The notes beneath the pieces are model-generated. The model was not told the origin of the DNA, did no database searches, and saw only the letters and a list, made by a program, of their open reading frames with translations. A DNA stretch of 50,063 nt from NCBI GenBank assembly GCA_022969215.1, contig JALJPA010000006.1:1-50063 (forward strand), written 5' to 3'. Below are positions 14,452 through 50,063 of the stretch, in pieces (position 1 is the first letter of the stretch; every line of letters begins with the position of its first letter). The translations under genes and the position numbers were made by a program. The stretch is from Colwellia sp. (lineage in GTDB: Bacteria; Pseudomonadota; Gammaproteobacteria; Enterobacterales; Alteromonadaceae).

Positions 14452-14526
14452 AACAAAACCCTTAAAGTTGAATGTGGATAGCAGAGTGTTAATGATAATA
14501 ACCTTAGTCTGTGGTGCGCAACATCT

Positions 14527-14540
14527 TGAATACGTATGCA
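14527..14540. promoter_or_regulatory. LacI-type operator, site 2
   Basis: TGAATACGTATGCA, 76 bases before the chosen GH31 start. It is one of three boxes in the GH31/GH13 divergent region. Its position inside the longest possible GH31 frame supports the downstream TTG start. Confidence 0.78.
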
Positions 14541-14566
14541 AACCGGACTAAGCCCACAATTGTTAT

Positions 14567-14580
14567 TACATACGTATGCA
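14567..14580. promoter_or_regulatory. LacI-type operator, site 3
   Basis: TACATACGTATGCA. Its centre is 40 bases from site 2 and 31 bases from site 4, which would suit cooperative binding by a tetramer or adjacent dimers. Confidence 0.8.
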
Positions 14581-14597
14581 TTTTTTGACAAAGCCTA

Positions 14598-14611
14598 TAC
14601 ATACGTATGCA
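14598..14611. promoter_or_regulatory. LacI-type operator, site 4
   Basis: TACATACGTATGCA, identical in sequence to site 3. It is 122 bases before the GH13 start, on the GH13 side of the divergent promoter region. Confidence 0.8.
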
Positions 14612-14732
14612 AAGCCTATCAGCTGCGTTTTTAATTGCGTATTCTTATTTGAAAGAATTATTAAGTGCTTGAACAATGGCTGTTGCTAATAACTGTCACT
14701 AAACGAGCAAGTATCAGTGTTGGGGTTTTCAA

Positions 14733-31881: not shown

Positions 31882-32609
31882 AAACAATATGGCGTAATTG
31901 GCTTTTCTGAGCAATCGTTATTGGTTTACAGATATTATTTAATAATATAGCCTTTAATGACCGCTTGGGTGGCTGAGTTCTCACTCAGACTTAACGGGGT
32001 ATTGGCAAAAATCATCACCTAGATGCAGATATTCTTATCTGTATCTAACGTCTGCTATCAGGAAACGGCTAACGTATTATAGTTGTTAAGCCATGTCCGC
32101 TGTAGATCAAAATATACTAAAAGTTTTAGTGAAATGTATCAAATGTGAACTTCCGCTTTGTGGTAAAAGTAAGCCTTAGATTTTACCAATGGATAGTTAG
32201 AAATAGTTCACCGCTAATGACTTCTTGGTGCGCTTTATAGTCCTTCAGTCTGAATAAACTTATAATCAGGGAGTTCAGATCAAGTAGCTATTTCATACAA
32301 ATATTGTGCGCTCATTATCTTGATGATTTCCGCATTGCTTTCGATGAACATAGGTACGCCTTAGCTCAATACCTAATACTCAAGGCTTGCCCAAAAACGC
32401 TATCTATATTGTTGTCGAAGAGTTTTGGCAGCTCTAAACTGAAACTATTAAATCAAAGCCAAAACGACTATTTCAAATACTTTGATCCCATTGGTTAACT
32501 AGGGCAGCTTAATTTTCTTTGTATAGAATCGATAGTTCAGTTAATTCATCTTTGTTTTTTTTTGAGAGTTCAGTAAAATAGTTAGTATTTAACAGTTATG
32601 TAAAGGTTA
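31882..32609. other. Long intergenic region
   Basis: No supported gene in 728 bases. A 64-codon frame at 32304-32498 lacks a ribosome site and similarity that I can recognise. A copy of the degenerate GCTTTGTGGTA repeat is at about 32154. Confidence 0.45.
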
Positions 32610-33850: not shown

Positions 33851-34034
33851 TGCTATTTATGAAATAATATTACTCACCCAATGCCGTTATAGATTATTAG
33901 TTGGACTAACATCTGTTTACGTATCGATAGTGCACCTTATTTTGATGAGTTTCAGTTAATAGATTTAGGCTGCTTTGTGGTACTTGCTGTCATTGGTCAA
34001 TACCTGAAATTTTAAAGCTTAACATTGTTTTTTT

Positions 34035-34610
34035 TCACCTTTCTCTATTCGTAATGTCATATAAATAAACCGGCGATTTATAAAAATCATCGATTTGTAT
34101 AGTCTTGCAAGGTTGCCATGCTCGTAGGGCAAAATTATTGCTGATAAGAAAGTTAACGCCTACTTGCTCTAAGTGCAGCTTATCGCTGATTTTTTCCATC
34201 GCTTGTGGGAATAAATAACATACTAATATTGATGCTGATGATAAGTCCGCCTGATAAAAATTTTGTCGATGGAGGGTTAAATTTTTTAGCCCTAAGATCT
34301 TTTTAACTAACATCGATGTTAGCCATGGCAAAAAGGAAAGTTCATAACCCACTATTTCCCTTTGCGGATACCGCTTGGCAATACGTATTACAAAATTGCC
34401 CCAGCCACTACCCAGATCAATTATCGACCCTGCTTTTGTTTCTAATTCCACTTCGTCAATTAATTGCATCATCGCCAGATAAGCTTTATTTGAGCTTGGC
34501 ATTGGCGAGATGCCTAATTTTACTGTGTTATAAATAATAGATACGGTAATAAGCAGCACTATTAATGCAAAAAACAGCAACAAAATAACATCAAATATTA
34601 TCAAGGGCAC
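34035..34610 (-). CDS. Membrane-anchored class I SAM methyltransferase
   Basis: About 191 residues. A single N-terminal membrane helix (VILLLFFALIVLLITVSIIY) is followed by a small Rossmann methyltransferase domain: motif I is SIIDLGSGWGNFVIRIA, motif II region is REIVGYELS, then LTLHRQNFYQADLSSASILVCYLFPQAMEKI. The Asp after the strand in DLSSASI fits the motif III area. The domain lacks a long C-terminal substrate part, so the target may be a membrane-bound molecule or protein. Either GTG 34610 or TTG 34604 could start it; AGGAG fits the TTG better. A decayed copy of its last codons is at 21481-21526. Confidence 0.8.
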   Translation of the reverse strand: MPLIIFDVILLLFFALIVLLITVSIIYNTVKLGISPMPSSNKAYLAMMQLIDEVELETKAGSIIDLGSGWGNFVIRIAKRYPQREIVGYELSFLPWLTSMLVKKILGLKNLTLHRQNFYQADLSSASILVCYLFPQAMEKISDKLHLEQVGVNFLISNNFALRAWQPCKTIQIDDFYKSPVYLYDITNRER

Positions 34611-34658
34611 ACTCTCCTGTTTTCTGTGTTAGTTATCAAAGTCGACAATTTTTTCAAT

Positions 34659-35564
34659 TTAACTTTCTACTACGTTTTCCACTAAATTATCTACTAGAAA
34701 GTCTAAGAAAACCCGTGTTTTAACTGACACCATTTCTCGCTTTAAATAAATAGCGTAGGTGGAGCTTAGTTCTTCATAGGGACTAAAGGTATGCTCTGGC
34801 ATTACTTGGATGAGGGTTCCATCGGCTAACTCTTTTCTAACAGCCCAAAGCGGCATTAACGTTAAGCCACTACCATTTAGTACCAGCTGCTTTTGGCCGT
34901 TAACTGAGTTAACAGAAATAGTATCGCTAATGGTTAATTTTGTTCTTTGTTCAGCCATTAAATACCAATCTTGCCAACGAGAGTAACTGTAGCGGATACA
35001 TCGATGATCAATTAGCTCTTCAGGGCTTTGCGGCGTACCTTCACGGGCTAAATATTGTGGGCTGGCGCAAAGTAAAAAGTTATTGAAAGCCAAGTGTTTG
35101 GCAATCATGCTTGAGTCAGCTAAGCGACCACTGCGAATAGCAACATCAATATTTTCTTCTACCAGATCTACAACGCGCTCGGTTAACTCAAGTTTGATAT
35201 TGATATCAGGATATAAGGCGATAAACTTGGGAATCAATGGCAGTACAATACTTTCGCCAAAGCCCACAGTCATGCTTATTTTTAGTTTGCCTTTTGGATT
35301 TTCTTGTAAGTCATTAACGGCCTTTTTTGCTTCATCAAATTCAGTAACAATACGTTGAGAATACTCATAATATTTTTGACCCGCTTCAGTTAATCCAGTA
35401 TTTCGAGTGGTTTTATTTAACAAACGCACACCTAGCTCTTGTTCAAGTGCTGCAAGTTGCCTTGAAATAGAGGAAGGCTGGACATCAAATATTCGGCTCG
35501 CAGCTGAAATGCTACCGGTTTCTACCACACAATTGAAATACAGTAATCGATTTAATGAACTCAT
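34659..35564 (-). CDS. LysR-family regulator, likely control of the divergent oxidoreductase
   Basis: 301 residues. The winged helix opens with LNRLLYFNCVVETGSISAASRIFDVQPSSISRQLAALEQELGVRLLNKTTRNTGLTEAG. The effector domain contains KISMTVGFGESIVLPLIPKFIALYPDINIKLELTERVVDLVEENIDVAIRSGRL, the pattern of the DsdC/CrgA subgroup. A 273-base divergent region separates it from the oxidoreductase at 35838, a standard LysR arrangement. It is the second LysR gene of this subgroup in the window; the other is cassette-borne. They are clearly homologous but distinct. Confidence 0.9.
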   Translation of the reverse strand: MSSLNRLLYFNCVVETGSISAASRIFDVQPSSISRQLAALEQELGVRLLNKTTRNTGLTEAGQKYYEYSQRIVTEFDEAKKAVNDLQENPKGKLKISMTVGFGESIVLPLIPKFIALYPDINIKLELTERVVDLVEENIDVAIRSGRLADSSMIAKHLAFNNFLLCASPQYLAREGTPQSPEELIDHRCIRYSYSRWQDWYLMAEQRTKLTISDTISVNSVNGQKQLVLNGSGLTLMPLWAVRKELADGTLIQVMPEHTFSPYEELSSTYAIYLKREMVSVKTRVFLDFLVDNLVENVVES

Positions 35565-35837
35565 CTTTATTCCTCTAGGCGCTGGCTCTTAAACAAGGTC
35601 TGTTAAATAAGGGCTATCAGGCACTAACTCTTATTAATAACTACTTTAACTTTGTGTTGCTTTAAAAGCAAAGGTGATTTGTCAGTTGGGTAATGGTTTG
35701 CTTTGTTGGCAAGGCATAAAATGGCCGCACTTAAACGAACAAGCAAAGCCTTTACTTATGTAATCAACTAAGTAAATAGCTAAGCAAGTAGCATAAGAAA
35801 ATATGCAAACTAATTTAAATATATAGAGAGTAAAATT

Positions 35838-36815
35838 ATGAAAGCAATGATCATTAAAGAAATCGGTAGCACAGACGTCTTTCAACTTGTTGAAAAAGCA
35901 AAACCAGTCGCTAAAGCGGGCCATATGGTAGTAGAAGTAAAAGCAAGCAGTGTAAACCCAATTGATACTATGCTGCGTTCAATTGAATTGCCATGGTCAG
36001 CTAACTTACCTGAAGTATTACACGGTGATGTTGCGGGTATTGTGGTTGAAGTGGCTGAAGACGTAAGCAACTTCAAAATTGGTGATGAAGTTTACGGCAT
36101 GGCTGGTGGCCTTAACGGTGTTGATGGTGCTTTAGCTGAATTTATGTTGGTTGATGCCCGTTTAATGGCCATGAAGCCTAAAAGCCTAAGCATGAAACAA
36201 GCTGCTGCTTTACCTTTGGTAGCAATCACTGCTTATGAAGCACTAGTACAAAAAATGAATGTTAAAGCCGGAGACCATGTGCTTATTCATGGCGCGACCG
36301 GCGGCGTTGGTCATATTGCCATTCAATTAGCAAAAGTGCTTGGCGCTAAGGTCACTGCTACTTATTCTAAGGCTAATGAAGCGCTAGCAAAAACACTGGG
36401 TGCAGATAATTTAGTTGATTATAAAACTGAGTCAGTTGCAGACTATGTGCAGGCTCACACCGATGGTGCTGGTTTTGATAAAATATTTGATACGGTTGCC
36501 GGTGATAACATTGAAAAGTCATTTGAGGCTGCTAAGTATAATGGTCATGTCGCAACAATTTTACCCATTGCCGATCCATTACAAATTGCCCTTAAAAGTT
36601 TGTCATTCCACAGTATTTTGATGCTTATTCCATTAAGCCACGGCATTAACCATGCATCTCATGGCCGCATCCTTACTGAGATAGCTGAACTTGTAGATGC
36701 AGGTAAAATCACCCCTATTATTGATGAGAGCAACTTTTCAATTTGGGAAGTCGCAAAAGCGCATGATCACATGGCATCAGGTAAAGCGGTAGGAAAAATT
36801 ACCTTAACGGTATAG
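35838..36815 (+). CDS. NADP-dependent MDR-family oxidoreductase (quinone-oxidoreductase type)
   Basis: 325 residues of the medium-chain dehydrogenase/reductase superfamily. The GroES-like N-terminal domain (VKASSVNPIDTMLRS, LPEVLHGDVAGIVVEVAEDVSNFKIGDEVYGMAGG) lacks the zinc-binding cysteines, so this is a zinc-free quinone-oxidoreductase type. The nucleotide fold has the NADP motif VLIHGATGGVGHIAIQLAKVLGAKVTATYS. The last part (AKAHDHMASGKAVGKITLTV) is typical. It probably reduces quinones or reactive enones. It is divergent from the LysR gene and likely induced by its signal. A terminator follows at 36844. Confidence 0.92.
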   Translation: MKAMIIKEIGSTDVFQLVEKAKPVAKAGHMVVEVKASSVNPIDTMLRSIELPWSANLPEVLHGDVAGIVVEVAEDVSNFKIGDEVYGMAGGLNGVDGALAEFMLVDARLMAMKPKSLSMKQAAALPLVAITAYEALVQKMNVKAGDHVLIHGATGGVGHIAIQLAKVLGAKVTATYSKANEALAKTLGADNLVDYKTESVADYVQAHTDGAGFDKIFDTVAGDNIEKSFEAAKYNGHVATILPIADPLQIALKSLSFHSILMLIPLSHGINHASHGRILTEIAELVDAGKITPIIDESNFSIWEVAKAHDHMASGKAVGKITLTV

Positions 36816-36843
36816 ATTTATAGTTACCTGATCTTCATTTAAC

Positions 36844-36877
36844 AAAAAGCTGCTAATAAGTTATTAGCATCTTTTTT
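36844..36877 (+). terminator. Rho-independent terminator after the oxidoreductase
   Basis: A GCTAATAA-G-TTATTAGC stem within AAAAAGCTG...CATCTTTTTT, ending in a T-run. Confidence 0.8.
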
Positions 36878-36952
36878 ATTTATATCGATTGAATAACTTA
36901 ATGATAAAATTTTAATGAGAATAAATTTTCAAGAACAAGGCGCTTGATTGAC

Positions 36953-36968
36953 CAATAGCTGGCTATTG
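36953..36968. repeat. Dispersed hairpin repeat, copy B
   Basis: CAATAGCTGGCTATTG is a 6+6 inverted repeat with a CTGG loop. It lies between the oxidoreductase and glycosidase genes and matches the copy at 19827. Confidence 0.55.
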
Positions 36969-37025
36969 CGACTGAGAACAGCTAAAGCAACGATGTTATT
37001 GGATATTTAAGCCATTAAATAAACT

Positions 37026-39527
<2,502 letters not shown>

Positions 39528-39680
39528 TTAAACTTGTTGTTATAGCAAACGGATCAATAAATTAGCCCAATTGGTATTAGTCACGAGCAAATGGTATTAG
39601 ATAAGCTTACTATGAGGTAAGTTTAGTATATTGTATATCCTTTTGTTTTTGAGTAACGATAGTACTCTTAAATATGGATA

Positions 39681-39711
39681 AACCTGTAAAGCAGGGGAAG
39701 CTTTACAGGTT
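39681..39711. terminator. Hairpin between the M56 gene and the GH63 gene
   Basis: AACCTGTAAAGC-AGGGGAA-GCTTTACAGGTT, a perfect 12-bp stem after the M56 gene. The T-run is poor, so it may be a weak terminator or 3' stabiliser. Confidence 0.5.
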
Positions 39712-39789
39712 GAACGATTTAATAACTTAAATCCTAACTATCAGCTTTTAATTACATAAATTACAAGCTTCATGTCAAATCGGCTAGGT

Positions 39790-41130
39790 TTATTGACTTA
39801 CCTCGATACGCTCAATCAGTGATTCTGGTTTCTTTGATGATGGACCCATAAGATAGTCTAATTGTACTAATAAGTTTTTAGATACCTTGCCTGTTTCTTG
39901 ATAACTCCACTGTTTTAATGCAGTAACAGCACTTTTATCAAAGACATAAGCCGGTTTAGCATTAACAACTTCAACGTGGCTAACCGAGCCGTCAGCTTCT
40001 ACATCAAATTTTAATACCACAGAACCTTCGGTGCCCGCTTTGACCGCTGCGACTGGATACTTAGGTTCTATTCTGTGCATTGGGTACGCATGAACTTGTT
40101 CTTTTTTATGTGCTTCTACCTTTTTATCTTGCATCACTTGACTGCCAGCATAACTAACGCCAGCGAGTAATGAACTAGATACCAAGGTAACTAAGCTTAT
40201 TTTAGCGACTTTGGTGATCGTGCTCTTTGTTGAGAAGGCTTTTGACATCTGTTTTATTTGTTCTATTCGATTAAACATAAAGTGTTGTTCTCCATTTTGC
40301 TTAAAACTATTCATAAAACTAAGTAAGGTAAAAGCGTTAGGTGGTGCTGTTTCTGCCGCTAGTACCAGTGCTTTACAGTATTGGATCCTGGATTGAGTAT
40401 GCTTTCGCGTCAAAACAACTTGGTCACAGGAATGCTCTTGATCTTGACGAAATGCCGCATAAGCACGCCAAGCTAGCGGATTGAACCAAAATAGCGCTAA
40501 GAGCATAAGCGCTAGCTGATTCGTCCACATATGGTGCTGAGAAAAATGACACATTTCATGACTGATGATCAGCTGTTGCTGCTCAGTGGTATAAAGTGTC
40601 TCAAAGTCCTCAGGAATAACTAAAACTTGTTTGAATAAACCGATAAGGATTGGGCTATGAATATGGCTACTTTGCGCCAGCAATAATTTATTTGCATTGC
40701 TTTCGCTTATTTGCTGTTGATGTTTACCGCCAGTTAAGAGTGTTAATTTTAACGCTTTTCGATAGTTATATTGGGTAACACTCCAATAACTAATAAGCAG
40801 GGTGAAACCTAAAGCCCAAGTACTGCTGAGCCATAAACCTAGCAGGTTATCTATTGATAATTGCTGGCTAATGCTCTGGCTTGGCGTCACTAAGTAACGT
40901 TGCATTAAGCTATTTTGTGATTCAATAGCGGTTAGCTCACTTATACTTAGCCAGCTTAAATTCTGCCAAGGTAAAGGCAAAAAATAAAGCACTAAACTCA
41001 ATGGAATAATCAGCCATAAGTTATAAACAGTATTGGCATCCATACTTTTTCTTAACGGCTGTCGGATGAGCAGCATTAGCGACAATAAAACGGTTAATGG
41101 CAGTAATGAATTAACTAACGCGCTAATCAT
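39790..41130 (-). CDS. BlaR1-type M56 metallopeptidase with C-terminal TonB domain
   Basis: 446 residues. An N-terminal membrane part (LLPLTVLLSLMLLIRQPL and further helices) carries a cytoplasmic zinc protease loop: HEMCH is at residues 191-195 (ISHEMCHFSQHHMWTNQLALMLLALFWFNPLAW), the HExxH of peptidase family M56. After the fourth helix (ISLVTLVSSSLLAGVSYAG) comes a periplasmic TonB C-terminal domain (HRIEPKYPVAAVKAGTEGSVVLKFDVEADGSVSHVEVVNAKPAYVFDKSAVTALKQWSY). Normal BlaR1 has a penicillin-binding sensor there instead. It overlaps the BlaI gene by eight bases and is coupled to it, so it likely senses an envelope signal and inactivates the repressor. Confidence 0.92.
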   Translation of the reverse strand: MISALVNSLLPLTVLLSLMLLIRQPLRKSMDANTVYNLWLIIPLSLVLYFLPLPWQNLSWLSISELTAIESQNSLMQRYLVTPSQSISQQLSIDNLLGLWLSSTWALGFTLLISYWSVTQYNYRKALKLTLLTGGKHQQQISESNANKLLLAQSSHIHSPILIGLFKQVLVIPEDFETLYTTEQQQLIISHEMCHFSQHHMWTNQLALMLLALFWFNPLAWRAYAAFRQDQEHSCDQVVLTRKHTQSRIQYCKALVLAAETAPPNAFTLLSFMNSFKQNGEQHFMFNRIEQIKQMSKAFSTKSTITKVAKISLVTLVSSSLLAGVSYAGSQVMQDKKVEAHKKEQVHAYPMHRIEPKYPVAAVKAGTEGSVVLKFDVEADGSVSHVEVVNAKPAYVFDKSAVTALKQWSYQETGKVSKNLLVQLDYLMGPSSKKPESLIERIEVSQ

Positions 41131-41545
41131 TATTTTTCTCCCAGTCAGAAATTAATGATTTTAGTGCACTTATATCGTCTTTATTAAGCTCATTTTGTTT
41201 AGCAAAGCCAGCCACCAGAGGCGCTAGTTTGCCGCTGAACATACGTTCGATTAAACTGGTGCTTTCTTTTAAGGTATAGGCTTCACGTTCTAATAACGGA
41301 GAATATAAATAATGACGTTGCTGTTTTTCAAAACTAATAGCCTGTTTTTTTACTAGACGGTTAAGCAAGGTTTTTACTGTTTTATCATGCCACTGCTTCT
41401 CTTGATTTTTATCATCGGGACTATTGCCATTAGCATTGGTACTAGTACTTTCATTAAGTTTGGCAATTATATCGTTAGCGCTAGCAGGGTATTTTTGCCA
41501 CAGTGCTTCTAATACTTCAAATTCGGCATTACTAATTTCAGTCAT
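41123..41545 (-). CDS. BlaI/MecI/CopY-family repressor
   Basis: 140 residues. The winged-helix start is typical of the family: ISNAEFEVLEALWQKYPASANDIIAKLNES, then KQWHDKTVKTLLNRLVKKQAISFEKQQRHYLYSPLLEREAY. A short dimer domain follows. A charged insert (STNANGNSPDDKNQE) stretches the wing. It is the first gene of a unit with the M56-TonB protease, which by analogy with BlaR1 would cleave or displace it. A long inverted repeat at 41581 just upstream is its likely operator. Confidence 0.93.
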   Translation of the reverse strand: MTEISNAEFEVLEALWQKYPASANDIIAKLNESTSTNANGNSPDDKNQEKQWHDKTVKTLLNRLVKKQAISFEKQQRHYLYSPLLEREAYTLKESTSLIERMFSGKLAPLVAGFAKQNELNKDDISALKSLISDWEKNND

Positions 41546-41580
41546 TATTATTTCCAGTTTTTTTCTAGGTATAATTAACT

Positions 41581-41620
41581 ATTACAAATGTAATCTATGA
41601 GTTAAGATTACATTTGTAAT
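41581..41620. promoter_or_regulatory. BlaI-type operator, 40-bp inverted repeat
   Basis: ATTACAAATGTAATC (41581-41595) and its exact complement GATTACATTTGTAAT (41606-41620) lie 36 bases before the blaI-like start. Each arm contains TACA-N-TGTA-like half sites, which is the motif that BlaI/MecI repressors bind. Confidence 0.85.
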
Positions 41621-41680
41621 CTTAACTGTCAATTGTTATTTTTATCTACGCTAGTGATTTAAAATAAGGGGGTTATTAAA

Positions 41681-42379
41681 ATGAAGATGATAAGTATTGT
41701 GCTGATGTGTTTTTTTCTTATGGCGTGTTCTTCAACAAAGGTTCACCTTTATACACGTTATTTATCAGCAGAAGAAACTGAAGCAGTGACTAAAAATTTA
41801 GAGGGATTAGGCTTTGATGTCATAGCTAATACTCTTGTTTTTCCTGATGAGATTCAGCAATCCACCTTACTTTATTCGCCATTTGTTGAAGGAGAAAATA
41901 CTTTAAATATCTTAATCGATACACTGGCTAATATTGATTGGCTTGTCCCTAATGTACAGCCAATCTTTGCTGGCAATCACTATTACACCAAAAATAGTGT
42001 TGGTCTGCTGTTATTGCCTGATGGGGTGAGGCAAAGTGATAAAGTGGCCAGGAAAGATCTGGTCAATGAATATGCAAGCGAAAATTGTCAGGCTTCAATG
42101 ACACTCAGTCTAAATAGTGATGCTAGTTATCAATTTTTATATTTAACTAAAACTGACCTTCAATCCCAAAAAAGTGGGCAGCTACAAGGAAGTTGGCAGA
42201 TCACAAGTTACCCATATATAGAATTGATTTCGTCAAATAAAATGTGGCGTTTCTATTATGAAATACAAAAAAATATAGAAATGGATGTGGTGGGTAAGAT
42301 AGAAATTATTGAATTAAACCCAGTAGATGACCATTATACCCTGCCAAAATGTAGCTTTCTCTATGGGCTCAGAGTGTGA
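41681..42379 (+). CDS. Lipoprotein of unknown function
   Basis: 232 residues with lipobox LMAC (Cys16). The first half reads SSTKVHLYTRYLSAEETEAVTKNLEGLGFDVIANTLVFPDEIQQSTLLYSPFVEGENTLNILIDTLANIDW, which resembles a SPOR- or OmpA-like alpha/beta unit. The second half is beta-rich (SYQFLYLTKTDLQSQKSGQLQGSWQITSYPYIELI). It starts 61 bases from the BlaI-type operator on the other side, so it may be controlled by the same repressor. I do not recognise a named family. Confidence 0.75.
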   Translation: MKMISIVLMCFFLMACSSTKVHLYTRYLSAEETEAVTKNLEGLGFDVIANTLVFPDEIQQSTLLYSPFVEGENTLNILIDTLANIDWLVPNVQPIFAGNHYYTKNSVGLLLLPDGVRQSDKVARKDLVNEYASENCQASMTLSLNSDASYQFLYLTKTDLQSQKSGQLQGSWQITSYPYIELISSNKMWRFYYEIQKNIEMDVVGKIEIIELNPVDDHYTLPKCSFLYGLRV

Positions 42380-42395
42380 GTTTTTAGCAAGATAA

Positions 42396-42420
42396 AGCGT
42401 ATTAGCAAAACTAATACGCT
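42396..42420. terminator. Hairpin between converging genes
   Basis: AGCGTATTAG-CAAAA-CTAATACGCT, a perfect 10-bp stem between the lipoprotein and the aldo/keto reductase. T-runs are weak. Confidence 0.6.
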
Positions 42421-42447
42421 GACAGTATTTTATTAAAAATTCGCGAC

Positions 42448-43356
42448 TTAAGGTTGCGCATATCCGTTTCTGGCTTCAAGCAAGCGATACCAGTCAGCAT
42501 GATTATATTCAATCGCTAAGGCTTGTTTAGCTGCGACAATTCGCTCTGGTGTGGTTGAACCAATAATGGGACAGATATTGGCCGGGTGTTTAAGTAACCA
42601 AGCTAAAATAAGTTGCCAAGGCAGGCAGTTATATTGCTCTGCTTGCCTTGCTAATTCAATTTCAATACGTTGTTCATCGGCTGTTGAAAAAGTATTTCCC
42701 CAAGCAGGGTAGGCAACACCGCCTAGTGGACACCAAGCAATAGGTGTTATGCCTAACTGCTGACATTGATCTAAACTGCCGTCGGTGAGGCTATCAATAT
42801 TATGAATATTTATTTCTATTTGATTAACAAGTAATGGCTCATCTAAAGCTGATTGTAATAAGCTCACTTGTGACGGGCTAAAGTTACTGACGCCAAAGTG
42901 TTTCACTTTTCCGCTAGCTTTTAGCTGTTGGAAAGTTTGCGCAACTTCTTCGGCATTAAATAAATAATCAGGGCGGTGCAGCAAAAACATATCTAGGTAA
43001 TCAACATTTAACCGCTTTAGAGAATTCTCAACACTGGTAGTTAAATAGTCTGTTGAAAAATCATAACGCTGGGGCTCAAAGCGAATGCCAGCTTTGGAGG
43101 TGATAATAAGTTGTTCACGTATTGTCGGTGTCTCTTGTTTAAGCTCGGTTAATAACTCGCCAAATAAACTTTCACAGTGACCTCCGCCATAAATATCGGC
43201 ATGATCAAAATGGTTATAACCCGCTTCAAGTGCCGCTCTAAGTGCCAACTTACCCTTGGCTTTATCTGCAGGGGTATTATCACCGGCTATACGCATACAG
43301 CCATAAATAAGGCGTGAGCTGGTTATTGAGGATGAATTAAAATTAATTTTTTGCAT
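42448..43356 (-). CDS. Aldo/keto reductase (YdhF-like)
   Basis: 302 residues; NADPH-dependent reduction of aldehydes and ketones in the cytoplasm. The catalytic tetrad fits the family: Asp51 and Tyr56 in HFDHADIYGGG, Lys88 in IITSKAG and His127 in MFLLHRPD. Later marks are VSNFSPSQV, NQIEINIHNID and ICPIIGSTTPERI, the NADPH phosphate site. The subgroup looks like E. coli YdhF. The substrate is unknown. Its start lies 33 bases from the remnant of a halogenase tail upstream, and no functional link is evident. Confidence 0.92.
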   Translation of the reverse strand: MQKINFNSSSITSSRLIYGCMRIAGDNTPADKAKGKLALRAALEAGYNHFDHADIYGGGHCESLFGELLTELKQETPTIREQLIITSKAGIRFEPQRYDFSTDYLTTSVENSLKRLNVDYLDMFLLHRPDYLFNAEEVAQTFQQLKASGKVKHFGVSNFSPSQVSLLQSALDEPLLVNQIEINIHNIDSLTDGSLDQCQQLGITPIAWCPLGGVAYPAWGNTFSTADEQRIEIELARQAEQYNCLPWQLILAWLLKHPANICPIIGSTTPERIVAAKQALAIEYNHADWYRLLEARNGYAQP

Positions 43357-43388
43357 TTTATGCCTTTGTTTTAGAATTGCGGACGCAG

Positions 43389-43468
43389 TTAAAGTGACTG
43401 TAAAAACTCATCATGGCTAGGTAGTTTCTCTACCGTACGTTTGATCAGTGTTGTTAAACTTACCATTA
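43389..43468 (-). pseudogene. Remnant of a second flavin-dependent halogenase (C-terminus)
   Basis: On the minus strand this 80-base piece reads LTTLIKRTVEKLPSHDEF then LQSL and a stop. The neighbouring intact halogenase ends IDKLPSHDDFLKIFCHR in the same position. No other part of the gene remains. A tandem halogenase pair must have existed and the downstream copy has been deleted except for its tail. Confidence 0.6.
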
Positions 43469-43562
43469 AATATGAAGTGTTGTTGCTTCAATAATTCACT
43501 TCATTTTTGACTAACATTAAATAAGTCATCATTTCTGCTGATTATGTTACTTTCATTTCTAT

Positions 43563-45053
43563 TTATCGATGACAAAATATTTTCAAAAAATCATCATGAC
43601 TGGGTAGTTTATCAATTGGCGCTTGTTTTATTTCTTTCACTTTTCTCAGCATCTCAGCGAGTTTTTCATCTGACATTGTATTGGCTATTGGATGATAATC
43701 TTTCGGTACGATACCTTGTCCTAACATAACCTGCAGCCATGAACTGTCGGTGAATAAATCATTTTGTTCTCTAAACAATCGACCACTGTGCTTAAATATT
43801 TCAATTTTATGGGCGAGGCTATCCGGAATTTTCATATGACGCATATCTTGCCAAAAATCACTGTCTGTACGCTCTGTGGCATGATAATGCAGTACTAAAA
43901 AATCCCTGATTTGTTCAAACTCAGTAGCAGACTGTTTGTTGAATTCATCGACTAAGCTGCTATTAATACCTTGATGAGGAAAAAGGTGTGCTAGTCGGAC
44001 AACAGCTGATTGCACAAGATGAATGCTGGTTGATTCAAGCGGCTCTAAAAAACCACTTGATAGACCAATCGCGATAACATTTTTATTCCATTGTTGGTAA
44101 CGTCGACCGGTTTGAAACTTAATAACTTTAGGGTCAGCAATGGCTTTACTGTCTAAATTACCCATTAAAGTATCCATTGCTTGCTGCTCACTACAATGAC
44201 TACTGCTGTAAACTATGCCATTACCATTACGGTGTTGCAGCGGAATGCGCCACTGCCAGCCTGCAGCATGAGCAATTGAGCGCGTATAAGGTAACGTTTG
44301 TTCTAATCGCTCTGAAGGTACAGCAATGGCTCGGTCACATTGCAATAAATGACTCCAATCTTCATAACCCGTACGAAGTTTTTCTTGAATGAGCAAACCT
44401 TTAAAGCCTGAACAATCGATAAATAAATCACCGGTAACTGTTTGGCCATTTTTCATCTTAAGAGAAGTTATATACCCAGAAACAGAACACTGCTCAACGT
44501 GTTCAACTAAACCTTCAGTTCTAACAACACCTATTTTTTCACTAAACTTACGTAAAAATTTTGCATATAACCCTGCGTCAAAATGATAGGCGTAAGGTAA
44601 TTCAATAATAGGGTCTTTACTTTTTATCTGGGCAAATTTACCTGCTTTAGCACATAAGTAATTCAAGTCGTATTGCCATAAATGGCTGTCATCTTCTAGT
44701 TGGTTAGCACGCTTTAATAGATGATGAAAATGACAAAAGGCTAAGCTTTTTCCTGCGGCACCAAAACTATGGAAATAGCTATGTCCTTGCCTTTTCCAAT
44801 TTTCAAAATTAATACCTAGTTTTATTGTTGCGTTGGTTTCACGTAAAAATTCTGCTTCGTTAATTCCCAAAACATTGTTTAAATGCTTGATCGGTGGAAT
44901 GGTCGCTTCGCCAACACCAATAGTACCAATATCATCTGACTCAACTAACTCAAGCTGAATGGCTGAGCCAAGTATTTTTTTCAATAAAGCAGCAGAAATC
45001 CACCCAGAAGTTCCGCCACCTAATACCACTATTTTTTTAATTGGACTATTCAT
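43563..45053 (-). CDS. Flavin-dependent tryptophan-halogenase-family protein
   Basis: 496 residues. The N-terminal FAD fold is marked by GGGTSGW (residues 12-18) and VGEATIPP (47-54). Lys78 in ATIKLGINFENWKRQG is in the position of the catalytic lysine that forms lysine chloramine in PrnA-type enzymes. WQWRIP (266-271) is the WxWxIP motif that separates halogenases from monooxygenases, and LSSGFLEPLESTSIHL closes the domain. Many family members next to TonB-dependent receptors in Alteromonadales have no shown substrate. It lies after a strong terminator from the receptor gene. It may halogenate free tryptophan, another indole, or a polymer component. Confidence 0.88.
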   Translation of the reverse strand: MNSPIKKIVVLGGGTSGWISAALLKKILGSAIQLELVESDDIGTIGVGEATIPPIKHLNNVLGINEAEFLRETNATIKLGINFENWKRQGHSYFHSFGAAGKSLAFCHFHHLLKRANQLEDDSHLWQYDLNYLCAKAGKFAQIKSKDPIIELPYAYHFDAGLYAKFLRKFSEKIGVVRTEGLVEHVEQCSVSGYITSLKMKNGQTVTGDLFIDCSGFKGLLIQEKLRTGYEDWSHLLQCDRAIAVPSERLEQTLPYTRSIAHAAGWQWRIPLQHRNGNGIVYSSSHCSEQQAMDTLMGNLDSKAIADPKVIKFQTGRRYQQWNKNVIAIGLSSGFLEPLESTSIHLVQSAVVRLAHLFPHQGINSSLVDEFNKQSATEFEQIRDFLVLHYHATERTDSDFWQDMRHMKIPDSLAHKIEIFKHSGRLFREQNDLFTDSSWLQVMLGQGIVPKDYHPIANTMSDEKLAEMLRKVKEIKQAPIDKLPSHDDFLKIFCHR

Positions 45054-45198
45054 GTTTGAGTTTCTCTTATAAATAATGTGCGATTAAATCAAATGAATTT
45101 TGCACTATATTGTCTTGTCTCGGTGCCTTAAAAATAGCAGCAGAAACTAAAATGTAAGATCTAATGACCCTAACCTTTTTATGTTGCAAAAGTCACTT

Positions 45199-45235
45199 AA
45201 AAAAAAACCTGTCAGTGTACTGACAGGTTTTTTTT
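45199..45235 (-). terminator. Terminator of the TonB-dependent receptor gene
   Basis: AAACCTGTCAG-TGTA-CTGACAGGTTT, a strong stem flanked by A and T runs, between the receptor stop and the halogenase start. It should largely uncouple the halogenase from receptor transcription. Confidence 0.9.
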
Positions 45236-45248
45236 AATCAAAAGTTCA

Positions 45249-48008
45249 CTAGAACTTGTAGTTAAGACCTAACGAGTAGTTAGCACCAAATGATTGGTAA
45301 GATGTAATTTGTCTTCCATCACTTGCTTCAGCTTGAATAGTATCTTCATCTGTAATATTTTGGGCTTGGAAGGAAATACTTAATCCTTGCAGTGATTCAA
45401 TGCCAGATTCATCGAAGTCATAGCTAATTTGTGCATCCCAAATTTCAGCACCTGAATCTTCCGTCGCTTCTAAAGCAAGGCTTCCTCCGCGTGTTTCAGT
45501 TAAGAATTCATCACGTTTTGTACCGGCAATACGGAATTCAAAGCCATTTCTTTCATAGTAAGCCGTTAATGAGTAACTTTCTTCAGAAAGTCCTGGTACT
45601 TTACCACCATCACTAAGTTTACCATCTAAGAATGTTCCATTTATGACTAAGCCAAAACCTTCTAAAGAGTCATGCATTACACGAAATGGAATGCTGGCTT
45701 GTAATTCGTAACCACGAACAAAACCTTCAAAACCATCTGTAGTGGTAGCAACATAACCCATAAATGTTGCAGGAGCATTACCATCCGAGTCTTGATGTAT
45801 CTCAGGAATATAGACATCAGAAAAATCAGTTAATGCATCTGACGTTCTGTGCCAGTTAGTTAAATCTTTGTAGAAGAACGTTGCTGCAAAATATCCGTCT
45901 TCAGCAAAGTAATTTTCATAAGAAAGATCAAACTGGTTAGCTGATAAAGGTTCTAACATCGGGTTGCCAGCACTACCACTCCAAGGACCATTTTGTGGAT
46001 CTGAACTTTGAATTTGATTATCGTTATAGGCAAATGTTGCTCGAGCATTTGGGCGCATATCATCTATACGAGGACGACTTTGTACTTTTGATATACCGGT
46101 ACGAATAAATTGACCTTCCGCAATTTCAAAGTTCAAGTTCAAAGTAGGTAAAATATCTGAATATGAAGCCCCGCCGCTTGTCGGTGTAGCCACTACATAG
46201 GCATTTTCATTTTCAACAGTTGAAAAACCTGTTGAAGATTGGTCAACGTCAATGTATTGAATGCCAAAGTTACCTGTCATGTAGATACCGGCAAACTCAG
46301 CTTCCAAACCGATTTTTGCGTACAAGGTTAACACCTCTTCAGCAACGGTATAGGTATCACCTAAACGGTCAGTTTGCACTAAAGAGGCTTCTGTCGCAGT
46401 GTAATAGCCACTTTCGTATAGACCTAAACTGTCATAGGCAAGAACACCTTCAATACCAATAAAACTTAAATCAGCAACACCTAATACATTAGGGATGGCA
46501 GCATCACCAGGATACTCTGGAGATGTTAAGTAATCACCTTCATTAATTTTAGATTTAGAGCGTTCAGAGTAGTTAACACCCATGCTAATACTACTAATAA
46601 TGCTGTATTCAACCGTACCATTAACTTCAAAACGTATACTGTCTAATTCTTCTTCAAATTCTGGACGGTTAACAAAGCCATCTTGTGCATCACTACCAAT
46701 AACTGGCGCACCCCATGATTGAGGGCCGGCAAGACGCATAAGGCTTTCGTCAGTATAATCAACACCAGGAAGTGTCGGGTGAGCACTGTACATAACGCCT
46801 GAAGATGTCATTTCCCATGAACGAGCTGCTGACGGACGCCCATCAATACCGGCACGACCTGTACCTGAGTAACTCTCTAAATCGATAATAGATTTATCAA
46901 CGTCACCCATAGATAAATCTAATACAGTTGACCAGTTGTCATCTAAAGCATATTCAACATTTAAACCAAAAGTAGTTAACTCTGACTCTTGTGTTCTGGC
47001 GTCATTACGAACCACTGAATGGAAACCATCCCAATTACCTGAAGTAACTAAACCATTTTCAATTGACGTTGCCTCATAGTTTACTCCACCCCATACAGGG
47101 CCACCTTCTTCAAGGCCACGGCGCACATCACTTTCTTCAAAATCTATATATAATGCATCAAACTTAATGGTAAGCTGATCATTTGGTTGATATTCAACAA
47201 TTGCAGCAAAAGAATCACGTTCCATCATGGCTGAACGTGCAAACGAATCATGACCACCTAAAATTTTGTCACCTTCAGGTGTATCAGCATAACCCCAAGC
47301 ACGGAAGTTTTCTTCTTGGCGAGGTGTTTCTTGTGAAGAAACGACTAAAGCAAGACCTAAGGTATCGTCCATAAACTGATCAACAAAATTGAAAGATAAA
47401 CGATGACCATTGTTATCATAATCTGGATTAGCAGAGTCTTTTTCATTTTGTTCGTACACAGCATTAACTGTCATCGAAGCATCTGAATTTAATGGGCTAA
47501 TGGTTTGTAAATCAATGGTGCCACCAATGCCTTGCGCGATAAGACCAGCTTCAGGTGTTTTGTATACAACAATGTTAGATACTATCTCAGTTGGGTATAA
47601 ATCGAATTCTACGCCACGGTTATCACCCATGCCAAGTAATTCACGACCGTTTAATGAGGTACCAATATAGTTTTCATTGAACCCACGTACTGATAGACCA
47701 CTTGTACGACCGTTACGACGCTCGCCAGTTACACCAGGAAGGCGTGCTAAAGATTCAGCAACACTGGTATCGGGTAATTTACCGATATCTTCAGCAGAAA
47801 GAACTTCAACAATTGAATTTGAGCTCATTTTAATTGCTTGTGCTCTTTGTAAAGCACCACGGATACCGGTTACTTGAATTACTTCAACTTCTGTTTCAGC
47901 TTTTTTATCTGCTTTAACTTCTTCTGCTGCAAAACTTGCAGTGCTTAATGCCATTAAGCCACTTGAAAGTAGAGCTAATGTCAATTTGCTTGGTTTAAAA
48001 TGTAGCAT
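45249..48008 (-). CDS. TonB-dependent receptor, probable maltodextrin importer
   Basis: 919 residues, an outer-membrane channel powered by TonB. The signal peptide ends STASFAAEE. Just after it, VEVIQVTGIRGALQRAQAIK forms the TonB box region, and the plug has SIVEVLSAEDIGKLPDTSVAESLARLPGVTGERRNGRTSGLSVRGF. About 700 residues of barrel strands follow, ending NYSLGLNYKF with the terminal Phe. This layout (IGKLPDxxVAESLxRLPGV) is that of the MalA-like carbohydrate receptors of Caulobacter and Alteromonadales. Two ATACGTAT boxes lie upstream and are shared with the divergent pullulanase, so it is in the maltodextrin regulon. Confidence 0.93.
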   Translation of the reverse strand: MLHFKPSKLTLALLSSGLMALSTASFAAEEVKADKKAETEVEVIQVTGIRGALQRAQAIKMSSNSIVEVLSAEDIGKLPDTSVAESLARLPGVTGERRNGRTSGLSVRGFNENYIGTSLNGRELLGMGDNRGVEFDLYPTEIVSNIVVYKTPEAGLIAQGIGGTIDLQTISPLNSDASMTVNAVYEQNEKDSANPDYDNNGHRLSFNFVDQFMDDTLGLALVVSSQETPRQEENFRAWGYADTPEGDKILGGHDSFARSAMMERDSFAAIVEYQPNDQLTIKFDALYIDFEESDVRRGLEEGGPVWGGVNYEATSIENGLVTSGNWDGFHSVVRNDARTQESELTTFGLNVEYALDDNWSTVLDLSMGDVDKSIIDLESYSGTGRAGIDGRPSAARSWEMTSSGVMYSAHPTLPGVDYTDESLMRLAGPQSWGAPVIGSDAQDGFVNRPEFEEELDSIRFEVNGTVEYSIISSISMGVNYSERSKSKINEGDYLTSPEYPGDAAIPNVLGVADLSFIGIEGVLAYDSLGLYESGYYTATEASLVQTDRLGDTYTVAEEVLTLYAKIGLEAEFAGIYMTGNFGIQYIDVDQSSTGFSTVENENAYVVATPTSGGASYSDILPTLNLNFEIAEGQFIRTGISKVQSRPRIDDMRPNARATFAYNDNQIQSSDPQNGPWSGSAGNPMLEPLSANQFDLSYENYFAEDGYFAATFFYKDLTNWHRTSDALTDFSDVYIPEIHQDSDGNAPATFMGYVATTTDGFEGFVRGYELQASIPFRVMHDSLEGFGLVINGTFLDGKLSDGGKVPGLSEESYSLTAYYERNGFEFRIAGTKRDEFLTETRGGSLALEATEDSGAEIWDAQISYDFDESGIESLQGLSISFQAQNITDEDTIQAEASDGRQITSYQSFGANYSLGLNYKF

Positions 48009-48177
48009 TGAATGTTCTCCCCTAGCCGTCCATGATTAATTTTATTAGCTAACTTCCATTTAGCCTAATAATTATATTTTGGTGTTTTATGTTTTCGTTA
48101 TGTTGTCACGTGTATTAATTCGTTGTTATTTGTGAGCCAGTTTAATATAAGACTGGTGGTGTCTGTTGAATAGCGCA

Positions 48178-48191
48178 TGCATACGTATTCA
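48178..48191. promoter_or_regulatory. LacI-type operator, site 5
   Basis: TGCATACGTATTCA, 170 bases before the receptor start. It is part of a pair with site 6, centres 31 bases apart, the same spacing as sites 3 and 4. Confidence 0.8.
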
Positions 48192-48208: not shown

Positions 48209-48222
48209 TGAATACGTATGCA
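48209..48222. promoter_or_regulatory. LacI-type operator, site 6
   Basis: TGAATACGTATGCA, the exact reverse complement of site 5, 78 bases before the pullulanase start. Confidence 0.8.
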
Positions 48223-48299: not shown

Positions 48300-50063
48300 A
48301 TGAAAAAATTCATTCTGCACATCAAAGCCATTTTTTTGGTTTTGCTGTTATCAGCTTGCCAAGAAAGTACACAAGGCGAAATTAGTCAACAAAACTCAGT
48401 TCAGCAAGAGCTGGCTGCTATCAAATTGTTAGCACAGGGCTTTTCTGCACATTGGTTATCTCCTCAATTAGTATTATTACCAAAAAATGAACAGGCTTTA
48501 CATTATCAATTAGTCTTGCTTACTAATGGTGGCGTTGATGGTAAAGACAACGGCAGGACTAAGGGAAACGAGCTAAAGCAAACGCCAATGACGGCGGTTT
48601 CTTTAGCGCATGAGTGGACAATACGCTTCCCTCACTTAGCTAATTTTCAAGCTTATCAAGTTGATATGAAAAATGAGCAAGCTAAGTGGTGGTTAAAGGG
48701 ACAGTTGCTTGTCACCGGGCTGGATAAGCAAAAAACCTTACAGTGGGCAACCAATGTGCAAACCGGACCGGTAATTGATGCACTTTACACTCAGGGCGAT
48801 AATGATGCTGATGAAGTTATAGATTTAGGCGCAACCATTATCAATAATCCTGCAGGTGAGGGCGTTAGCTCTGTTGTTAATGAAGCTGTTAGCTTTAAGT
48901 TGTGGGCACCAACAGCTCAGGCAGTTTCTGTGCAGCTTTTTGATGACAACTTACAAGCGATTTCAGGTGGCAAGCTTGCAATGATAGAAGATACCAATAC
49001 AGGTGTTTGGCAGGTGGTATCAGATAACCAAGCGAGTTATGCATATTATAAATATCAGCTCAGCGTTTATCACCCGGTATCCCAAAAGATAGAAAGCTTA
49101 TCGGTTACTGATCCATATTCTTTAAGCTTATCTATTAATAGTGAGTACTCACAGGTAGTGAATTTGAATGATGCTGTTACTCAACCCGAAAACTGGCTCA
49201 ATCAACACATACCGACAGTTAAAAATGTCGAAGACAATGTCTTTTATGAAACGCATATTCGCGACTTTAGTGCCAATGAACAACGTTTAAGTGATCCTGA
49301 TTTTAAAGGAAAATATAAAGCTTTTAGCGAGCAAAACTCTGACGGCATTCAACATTTAAAAGCATTGCAAGCGGCAGGGCTAAATAATATTCATTTATTA
49401 CCTACCTTTGACATTGCTACGGTTAACGAAGATGAGTCTAAGCACCTTGATATAGATGATAACCTCGCTAAGGTTTGTACCATTACACCCAATGCCAGTA
49501 TCTGTCAGCAATCTTACGATGAAAAACAGTCAATTAAGTCGTTATTACAGAGTTTTTCGGTTGCTGGAGAAAAAGCGCAGCAATTAGTTAGTCAATTACG
49601 TGAATATGACAACTATAACTGGGGTTATGACCCTTTTCATTACACGGTGCCTGAAGGCAGTTATGCCGTTGAAGCGAAAGGGGTATCGCGTTTAGTCGAA
49701 TTTAGAGAAATGGTGCAAAGCCTTCATGGTATGGGCTTTCGGGTGATTATGGACGTGGTTTATAACCATACCCATCAAGCTGGCTTAGAAACCAATGCCG
49801 TATTAGATAAAATAGTGCCTAATTATTACCATAGATTACACCCAATAACCAGTGCAATCGAGCAATCGACATGTTGTGATAATACCGCGACAGAGCGTGT
49901 AATGATGGCAAAACTAATGACAGACTCATTAATAGTTTGGGCTCGCGATTATATAATTGATGGTTTTCGTTTTGTTTTAATGGGGCATCAACCGAAAGAT
50001 GCCATGTTAGCGGCAAGAGCAGCGGTGCGCCAAGTCGATAGTGATACTTACTTTTACGGTGAG
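48300..50063 (+). CDS. Pullulanase-type GH13 lipoprotein, 3' end missing; catalytic Asp replaced
   Basis: 588 residues are visible and the frame is still open at the window end. The signal peptide has lipobox LSAC, so it should sit on the outer membrane or cell surface. An N-terminal carbohydrate-binding-like part is followed by a CBM48-type domain (VSFKLWAPTAQAVSVQLFDD) and the GH13 barrel (NVFYETHIRDFSANEQR, YNWGYDPFHYTVPEGSYA, VIMDVVYNHTHQAG). Region II reads DGFRFVLMGH: Val559 replaces the Asp nucleophile that is invariant in pullulanases (GFRFDLMGH). Region III YFYGE ends with Glu588, the expected acid/base, exactly 29 residues later as in the Klebsiella enzyme. It should debranch alpha-1,6 bonds, but this copy is probably inactive unless the change is a sequence error. 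Confidence 0.9.
   Translation, partial: MKKFILHIKAIFLVLLLSACQESTQGEISQQNSVQQELAAIKLLAQGFSAHWLSPQLVLLPKNEQALHYQLVLLTNGGVDGKDNGRTKGNELKQTPMTAVSLAHEWTIRFPHLANFQAYQVDMKNEQAKWWLKGQLLVTGLDKQKTLQWATNVQTGPVIDALYTQGDNDADEVIDLGATIINNPAGEGVSSVVNEAVSFKLWAPTAQAVSVQLFDDNLQAISGGKLAMIEDTNTGVWQVVSDNQASYAYYKYQLSVYHPVSQKIESLSVTDPYSLSLSINSEYSQVVNLNDAVTQPENWLNQHIPTVKNVEDNVFYETHIRDFSANEQRLSDPDFKGKYKAFSEQNSDGIQHLKALQAAGLNNIHLLPTFDIATVNEDESKHLDIDDNLAKVCTITPNASICQQSYDEKQSIKSLLQSFSVAGEKAQQLVSQLREYDNYNWGYDPFHYTVPEGSYAVEAKGVSRLVEFREMVQSLHGMGFRVIMDVVYNHTHQAGLETNAVLDKIVPNYYHRLHPITSAIEQSTCCDNTATERVMMAKLMTDSLIVWARDYIIDGFRFVLMGHQPKDAMLAARAAVRQVDSDTYFYGE

Follow-up and report, generated by a model that had tools for sequence, protein, structure and literature searches.

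A Colwellia pullulanase gene with valine at the nucleophile position, 88 bases before a contig end

Pullulanases of the PulA type are defined by the order of their N2, CBM48 and Ins domains. In the lipoprotein PulA of the Klebsiella type (PDB 2yoc, 2fgz, 6j33), a GH13 enzyme with these three domains, the Asp of the motif IDGFRFDLMG is the catalytic nucleophile; a literature search for this nucleophile under its usual residue numbers gave nothing. Among glucan-binding proteins of the bacterial surface, SusE and SusF consist of beta modules that bind starch, lack a hydrolase barrel and are encoded in a Sus locus. A precedent for a debranching protein without its nucleophile comes from the wider family: according to the portion of PMC12510319 consulted, at least four of the five catalytic residues, the nucleophile included, vary in every plant ISA2 protein examined, ISA2 pairs with ISA1, and the ancestor shared by the green lineage is inferred to have already had a noncatalytic isoamylase paralogue. 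Among the titles and abstract openings listed in the literature searches, none named a bacterial pullulanase lacking the nucleophile.

The pullulanase gene and its motifs

The DNA analysed here (the window) is one complete contig, C391, of 50,063 bases, from a Colwellia draft assembly of 434 contigs with a completeness of 87.18%. Its last gene encodes a pullulanase that the initial annotation had singled out for a Val codon in place of the nucleophile. The features of this region are:

45249–48008, minus strand: divergent TonB-dependent receptor (TIGR01782)
48178–48191: palindromic box TGCATACGTATTCA, upstream of the pullulanase
48209–48222: palindromic box TGAATACGTATGCA, upstream of the pullulanase
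48300–50063, plus strand: PulA-type lipoprotein pullulanase (GH13 with CBM48), truncated after 588 codons at the contig end (TIGR02103 match)
48300–48359, plus strand: signal peptide with presumed lipobox (LLSAC), Cys20 (from the sequence)
48444–48779, plus strand: Pullulanase_N2 (PF17967), residues 49–160, divergent allele (domain search and local matches)
48882–49121, plus strand: CBM48 (PF02922), residues 195–274 (domain search)
Residues 372–439 of the pullulanase, plus strand: Pullulanase_Ins (PF18494) (domain search)
49752–49769, plus strand: conserved region I, DVVYNH, residues 485–490 (sequence and PulA alignment)
49953–49955, plus strand: codon 552, ATA (Ile), Lys in 29/29 orthologues, the second private change
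49974–49976, plus strand: codon 559, GTT (Val), within DGFRFVLMGH, Asp (nucleophile) in 29/29 orthologues
50061–50063, plus strand: codon 588, GAG (Glu), region III acid/base, last codon of the contig

The gene is that of an ordinary lipoprotein pullulanase cutting alpha-1,6 branches of glucans, and it probably serves a maltodextrin pathway fed by TonB-dependent transport. The N2, CBM48 and Ins domains follow one another as in the PulA proteins of TIGR02103, and the match to this profile reaches 590 bits over positions 6–528 of 900, the remainder lying beyond the contig; the curated cut-off of 697.6 bits applies to the whole protein. Klebsiella-type PulA is colinear with residues 49–588 of the window protein, and Val559 lies opposite the Asp of IDGFRFDLMG in both alignments printed. 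Compared with PulA, the window protein carries Val instead of the nucleophile Asp and, seven residues earlier, Ile instead of Lys, and its C-terminal half lies beyond the contig.

The letters bear out the GTT codon described by the initial annotation, as well as DVVYNH, CBM48 and Glu588, 29 residues on from the site. Of the residues expected in a GH13 retaining hydrolase, the region II Asp nucleophile is thus Val559 in the given letters, and the region III acid/base is present as Glu588, a Glu in 29/29 orthologues. The further statement that the rest of the barrel is intact goes beyond the window, whose open reading frame encodes only the first half of the GH13 barrel. Because the contig ends at Glu588, the second half is absent, and with it the third catalytic Asp.

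Residues 552 and 559 among relatives

To compare these positions we used two sets of loci. Matches to the gene were present in 108 of 147 related genomes, and the 30 loci returned comprised the window's own and 29 orthologues (L004–L032). A second set was fetched with residues 430–544 alone, that is, without the motif, and consisted of the best 80 of 100 relatives. The two sets overlap, so that 48 pooled orthologues reduce to 30 distinct ones. L047 was left out of the final count, since a frame change divides its gene and the extracted sequence covers only a part. In L047 (Colwellia maritima) and in G009:C3 the orthologue appears to lie in two pieces in different frames, through either a frameshift or a sequencing error.

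Asp559, Lys552 and Glu588 were each found in all 29 orthologues of the first set, and in the second set all 97 matches in the 80 loci carried Asp at the site (61 GAT and 36 GAC). The expectation that relatives have Asp here therefore held throughout, which places Val559 outside ordinary variation. The initial annotation had also reasoned that related strains with GAT at this codon would leave only an error or a private mutation without functional meaning; at the level of species, the relatives examined agree with this, with GAT or GAC in all 97 matches. The pattern DGFRF-x-LMG with a GAY codon at x occurred in 96 of 395 family genomes, and with a codon whose second base is not A in one of the 395, the window's own; this pattern is blind to replacements that keep A at the second base and to altered flanks.

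The closest named relatives are Colwellia records, L035 and L036 among them, whose orthologues have 75–76% protein identity to the window in local alignment over residues 11–588. These Colwellia orthologues share the site and the neighbouring motifs with the window protein, unlike which L004–L032 all have Asp559 and Lys552, and against them the N-terminal 160 residues of the window represent a divergent allele. As proposed initially, a single A-to-T change fits D559V, but it is an incomplete account, since Lys552 is replaced by Ile only 21 bases away; relative to the orthologues, both replacements look like A-to-T changes at the second codon position.

The two replacements also stand apart from the remainder of the gene. 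The 29 orthologues agree completely at 194 of the 588 columns, and the window departs from these only at K552I and D559V. Both lie among the 28 invariant columns of the last 37 codons, with no departure at the preceding 166; the probability of this placement by simple counting is 0.02, a post hoc value that ignores relatedness. When each orthologue was left out in turn, 14 of the 29 showed no departure at invariant columns, 10 showed one, and five showed 2, 3, 3, 4 and 7. Most of these private departures are less drastic exchanges than K552I and D559V, although L026 (seven departures) has several radical ones, mostly N-terminal. At a relaxed threshold of 26/29, the window also departs at residues 47, 58, 97, 103, 123, 134, 518 and 545, six of which fall in the divergent N-terminal part and two at most 215 bases from the tip.

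Relaxed selection was considered and rejected. Over residues 190–545, dN/dS between the window and four relatives is 0.090–0.126, compared with 0.078–0.123 among the relatives (eight comparisons). This part is therefore under normal purifying selection and shows no sign that constraint has been relaxed for long. For residues 546–588 the values against the four relatives (0.05–0.18) are not clearly raised; what is odd is solely which sites were hit.

The contig end and the mosaic gene

The Val base lies 88 bases before the contig end and the Ile552 base, at 49954, 109 bases before it. The final ~120 residues of the pullulanase were found at the very start of another contig of the draft, C42, where the reading frame of this C-terminal piece is open. 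Measured on the closest orthologue, L004, the gap between C391 and C42 is about 778 bases and would include the third catalytic Asp, that of region IV. A simple interruption by an insertion sequence was ruled out as the cause of the contig break, given that these ~778 bases of the gene are absent between the two contigs. No overlapping contig covering the pullulanase tip a second time was found in the draft at E ≤ 0.001.

We then looked at the tips of 20 other contigs in this draft. Of their 38 ends considered, 19 had an open frame of at least 150 residues. Leaving out both ends of one 2.4-kb contig, 17 coding tips were sampled, and 15 of them had a homologue in two close genomes (G001 and G035); for one of the 15 the match covered just 101 bases and lay in repeated sequence. 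Amino acid changes from the best match affected 21 of 593 codons at less than 120 nt from the tip and 32 of 1260 codons deeper in the contig (p = 0.23, Fisher test), and the exchanges listed, from seven tips, resemble ordinary divergence. At the other end of the window's own contig, the gene at its start matches G001 at 100%. General tip errors in this draft were thus rejected, as the 15 comparable tips have no significant excess, which counts against the reading that we favour below; tip errors would therefore not be general, and the pullulanase tip would be a poor one.

The pullulanase gene is itself a patchwork. For its first 160 residues (48300–48779), the top 25 among 79 local matches show 34–45% identity, and identity to the orthologues over alignment columns 49–175 is at most 53%. 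Compared with the closest relatives, residues 49–160 have reached saturation at silent sites, with a dN of 0.51, whereas residues 190–545 are close to them (dN 0.03–0.04). Somewhere between residues 150 and 200 the protein switches to about 90% identity with L004, and after residue 190 it lies near L004 and L005. No donor of the divergent N-terminal 160 residues was found among the loci compared. Derivation of this part from the long PulA paralogue was unsupported, the 25 best of the 79 local matches lying in N2 domains of the orthologue itself. Residues 341–420 (49320–49559, 240 nt) are identical to L004 at the DNA level, flanked by three differences in the adjoining 60 nt on each side and by 7–9 in the 60 nt beyond; this stretch may be a recombination tract or an assembly chimera.

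The mosaic pattern continues upstream of the gene, where window positions 33973–43471 match the closest genome (G001/G035) at 89% and 43559–48191, comprising a Trp-halogenase-like gene, the TonB-dependent receptor and part of the intergenic stretch, match G026, another genome of the genus, at 85–87%. Recombination between species of the genus would give such a mosaic, and a chimeric assembly of a mixed sample would look similar. In place of the 43559–48191 segment, G001 and G035 have a long PulA paralogue a few kb upstream of the orthologue. Also in the window, 39790–41130 encodes a protein that unites a TonB C-terminal domain and a peptidase domain of the M56 (BlaR1) type in a single chain, and the short stretches 36878–37023 and 32152–32430, which match many places in related genomes, represent dispersed repeat families.

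Readings of the valine codon and the upstream region

Sequencing or assembly error and a fresh inactivating mutation, two of the options offered by the initial annotation, both fit these data. We rank a consensus error as the most likely reading, followed by a recent private mutation and, last, by a glucan-binding pseudoenzyme. Val559 is probably an error of the consensus at the contig tip: the draft is fragmented, the contig stops within the gene, and two private letters fall on invariant codons near its end. The consensus letters at Lys552 and Asp559 would then be wrong, and in the living organism the site would be Asp and the enzyme would use the usual retaining two-step mechanism. Against an error count, besides the other tips, the dN/dS of residues 546–588, the 100% match of the gene at the contig's start, and the benchmark for single-cell assemblies of about 9 mismatches per 100 kb, quoted in the consulted part of PMC6436528. 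Since no visible proneness to error marks the other tips sampled, a real private allele of recent origin with loss or near-loss of function, in a gene not yet further decayed, is well alive, and we regard it as a serious contender that falls short of even chances. Its product would be made and would bind glucan without cutting it. In keeping with such an allele, the reading frame is otherwise open, also in the C-terminal piece on C42, the gene is already unusual in its divergent N-terminal part and mosaic pattern, and loss of maltodextrin genes in single strains is known, for example in Shewanella oneidensis MR-1 (in the part of PMC2996990 consulted). However, two radical changes 21 bases apart, with none at the 166 earlier invariant columns, are better explained by a local fault than by decay along the whole gene, dN/dS is normal, and no second copy that would make the loss harmless was found in the incomplete draft. 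Joining of reads from two co-occurring Colwellia populations within the pullulanase, a possibility that overlaps with a consensus error and under which the frame near the tip would belong to no real cell, is in our view unlikely. It would account for the patchwork of saturated residues 49–160, close residues 190–545 and the stretch identical to L004, but real homologous recombination gives an equal picture, and no Val donor was found among the 97 matches or the 395 genomes, so that a chimera of functional genes alone would not yield Val. Overall, the letters are real in the record and the biology probably is not. The case is mainly a caution: where a catalytic residue seems lost less than 100 bases from the end of a draft contig, the reads are needed before the loss is accepted as biology.

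The initial annotation had also suggested a catalytically dead pullulanase that binds glucan at the cell surface and works with the adjacent TonB-dependent receptor, much as SusE and SusF do. We found nothing to sustain this idea, for which, as a selected function, plant ISA2 would be another model, and we consider it highly improbable. CBM48, N2 and the lipobox are present, the receptor adjoins the gene, and plant ISA2 is a precedent within the wider family, its nucleophile and most other catalytic residues being variable (PMC12510319, portion consulted). Both ISA2 and the window protein combine a CBM48-bearing GH13 debranching fold with the lack of a working nucleophile. Nevertheless, ISA2 varies at four or more of five catalytic residues, whereas the present case concerns one visible catalytic residue in one genome: catalytic loss is not fixed across species, the window's genome being the only one of 395 in the family with the non-Asp pattern, and a function under selection would be expected in close relatives too. 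Glu588 and region I are preserved, the private change of Lys552 would be left unexplained, and the window protein, a barrel-bearing PulA homologue, is of another kind than SusE and SusF. A second intact pullulanase, which the initial annotation had proposed to look for and which could serve as active partner, was not found in the draft: the protein search (87% completeness) returned no other member of the same family, only the pullulanase gene itself and a 792-residue GlgX (TIGR02100) with an intact Asp, and the long PulA paralogue of many relatives (open reading frames of about 1300–1500 residues) was likewise not found in this incomplete assembly. That one Colwellia lineage has turned the Val/Ile pullulanase into a glucan-binding lipoprotein feeding the TonB-dependent receptor, as a bacterial counterpart of ISA2, thus seems to us a very distant prospect; were it real and under selection, a debranching pseudoenzyme of bacteria would have become a glucan receptor.

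The receptor by itself is no argument for a binding role, because 11 of 28 examined loci whose pullulanase has Asp likewise show receptor matches upstream on the other strand. The two regulon boxes reported upstream of the gene were confirmed as palindromes at 48178 and 48209, both centred on ATACGTAT; in L004 and L036 the orthologue is preceded by one box of this kind. Three more boxes with the same centre (14530, 14570 and 14601, within 14525–14615) are located at the 5' end of the open reading frame 11872–14541 on the minus strand.
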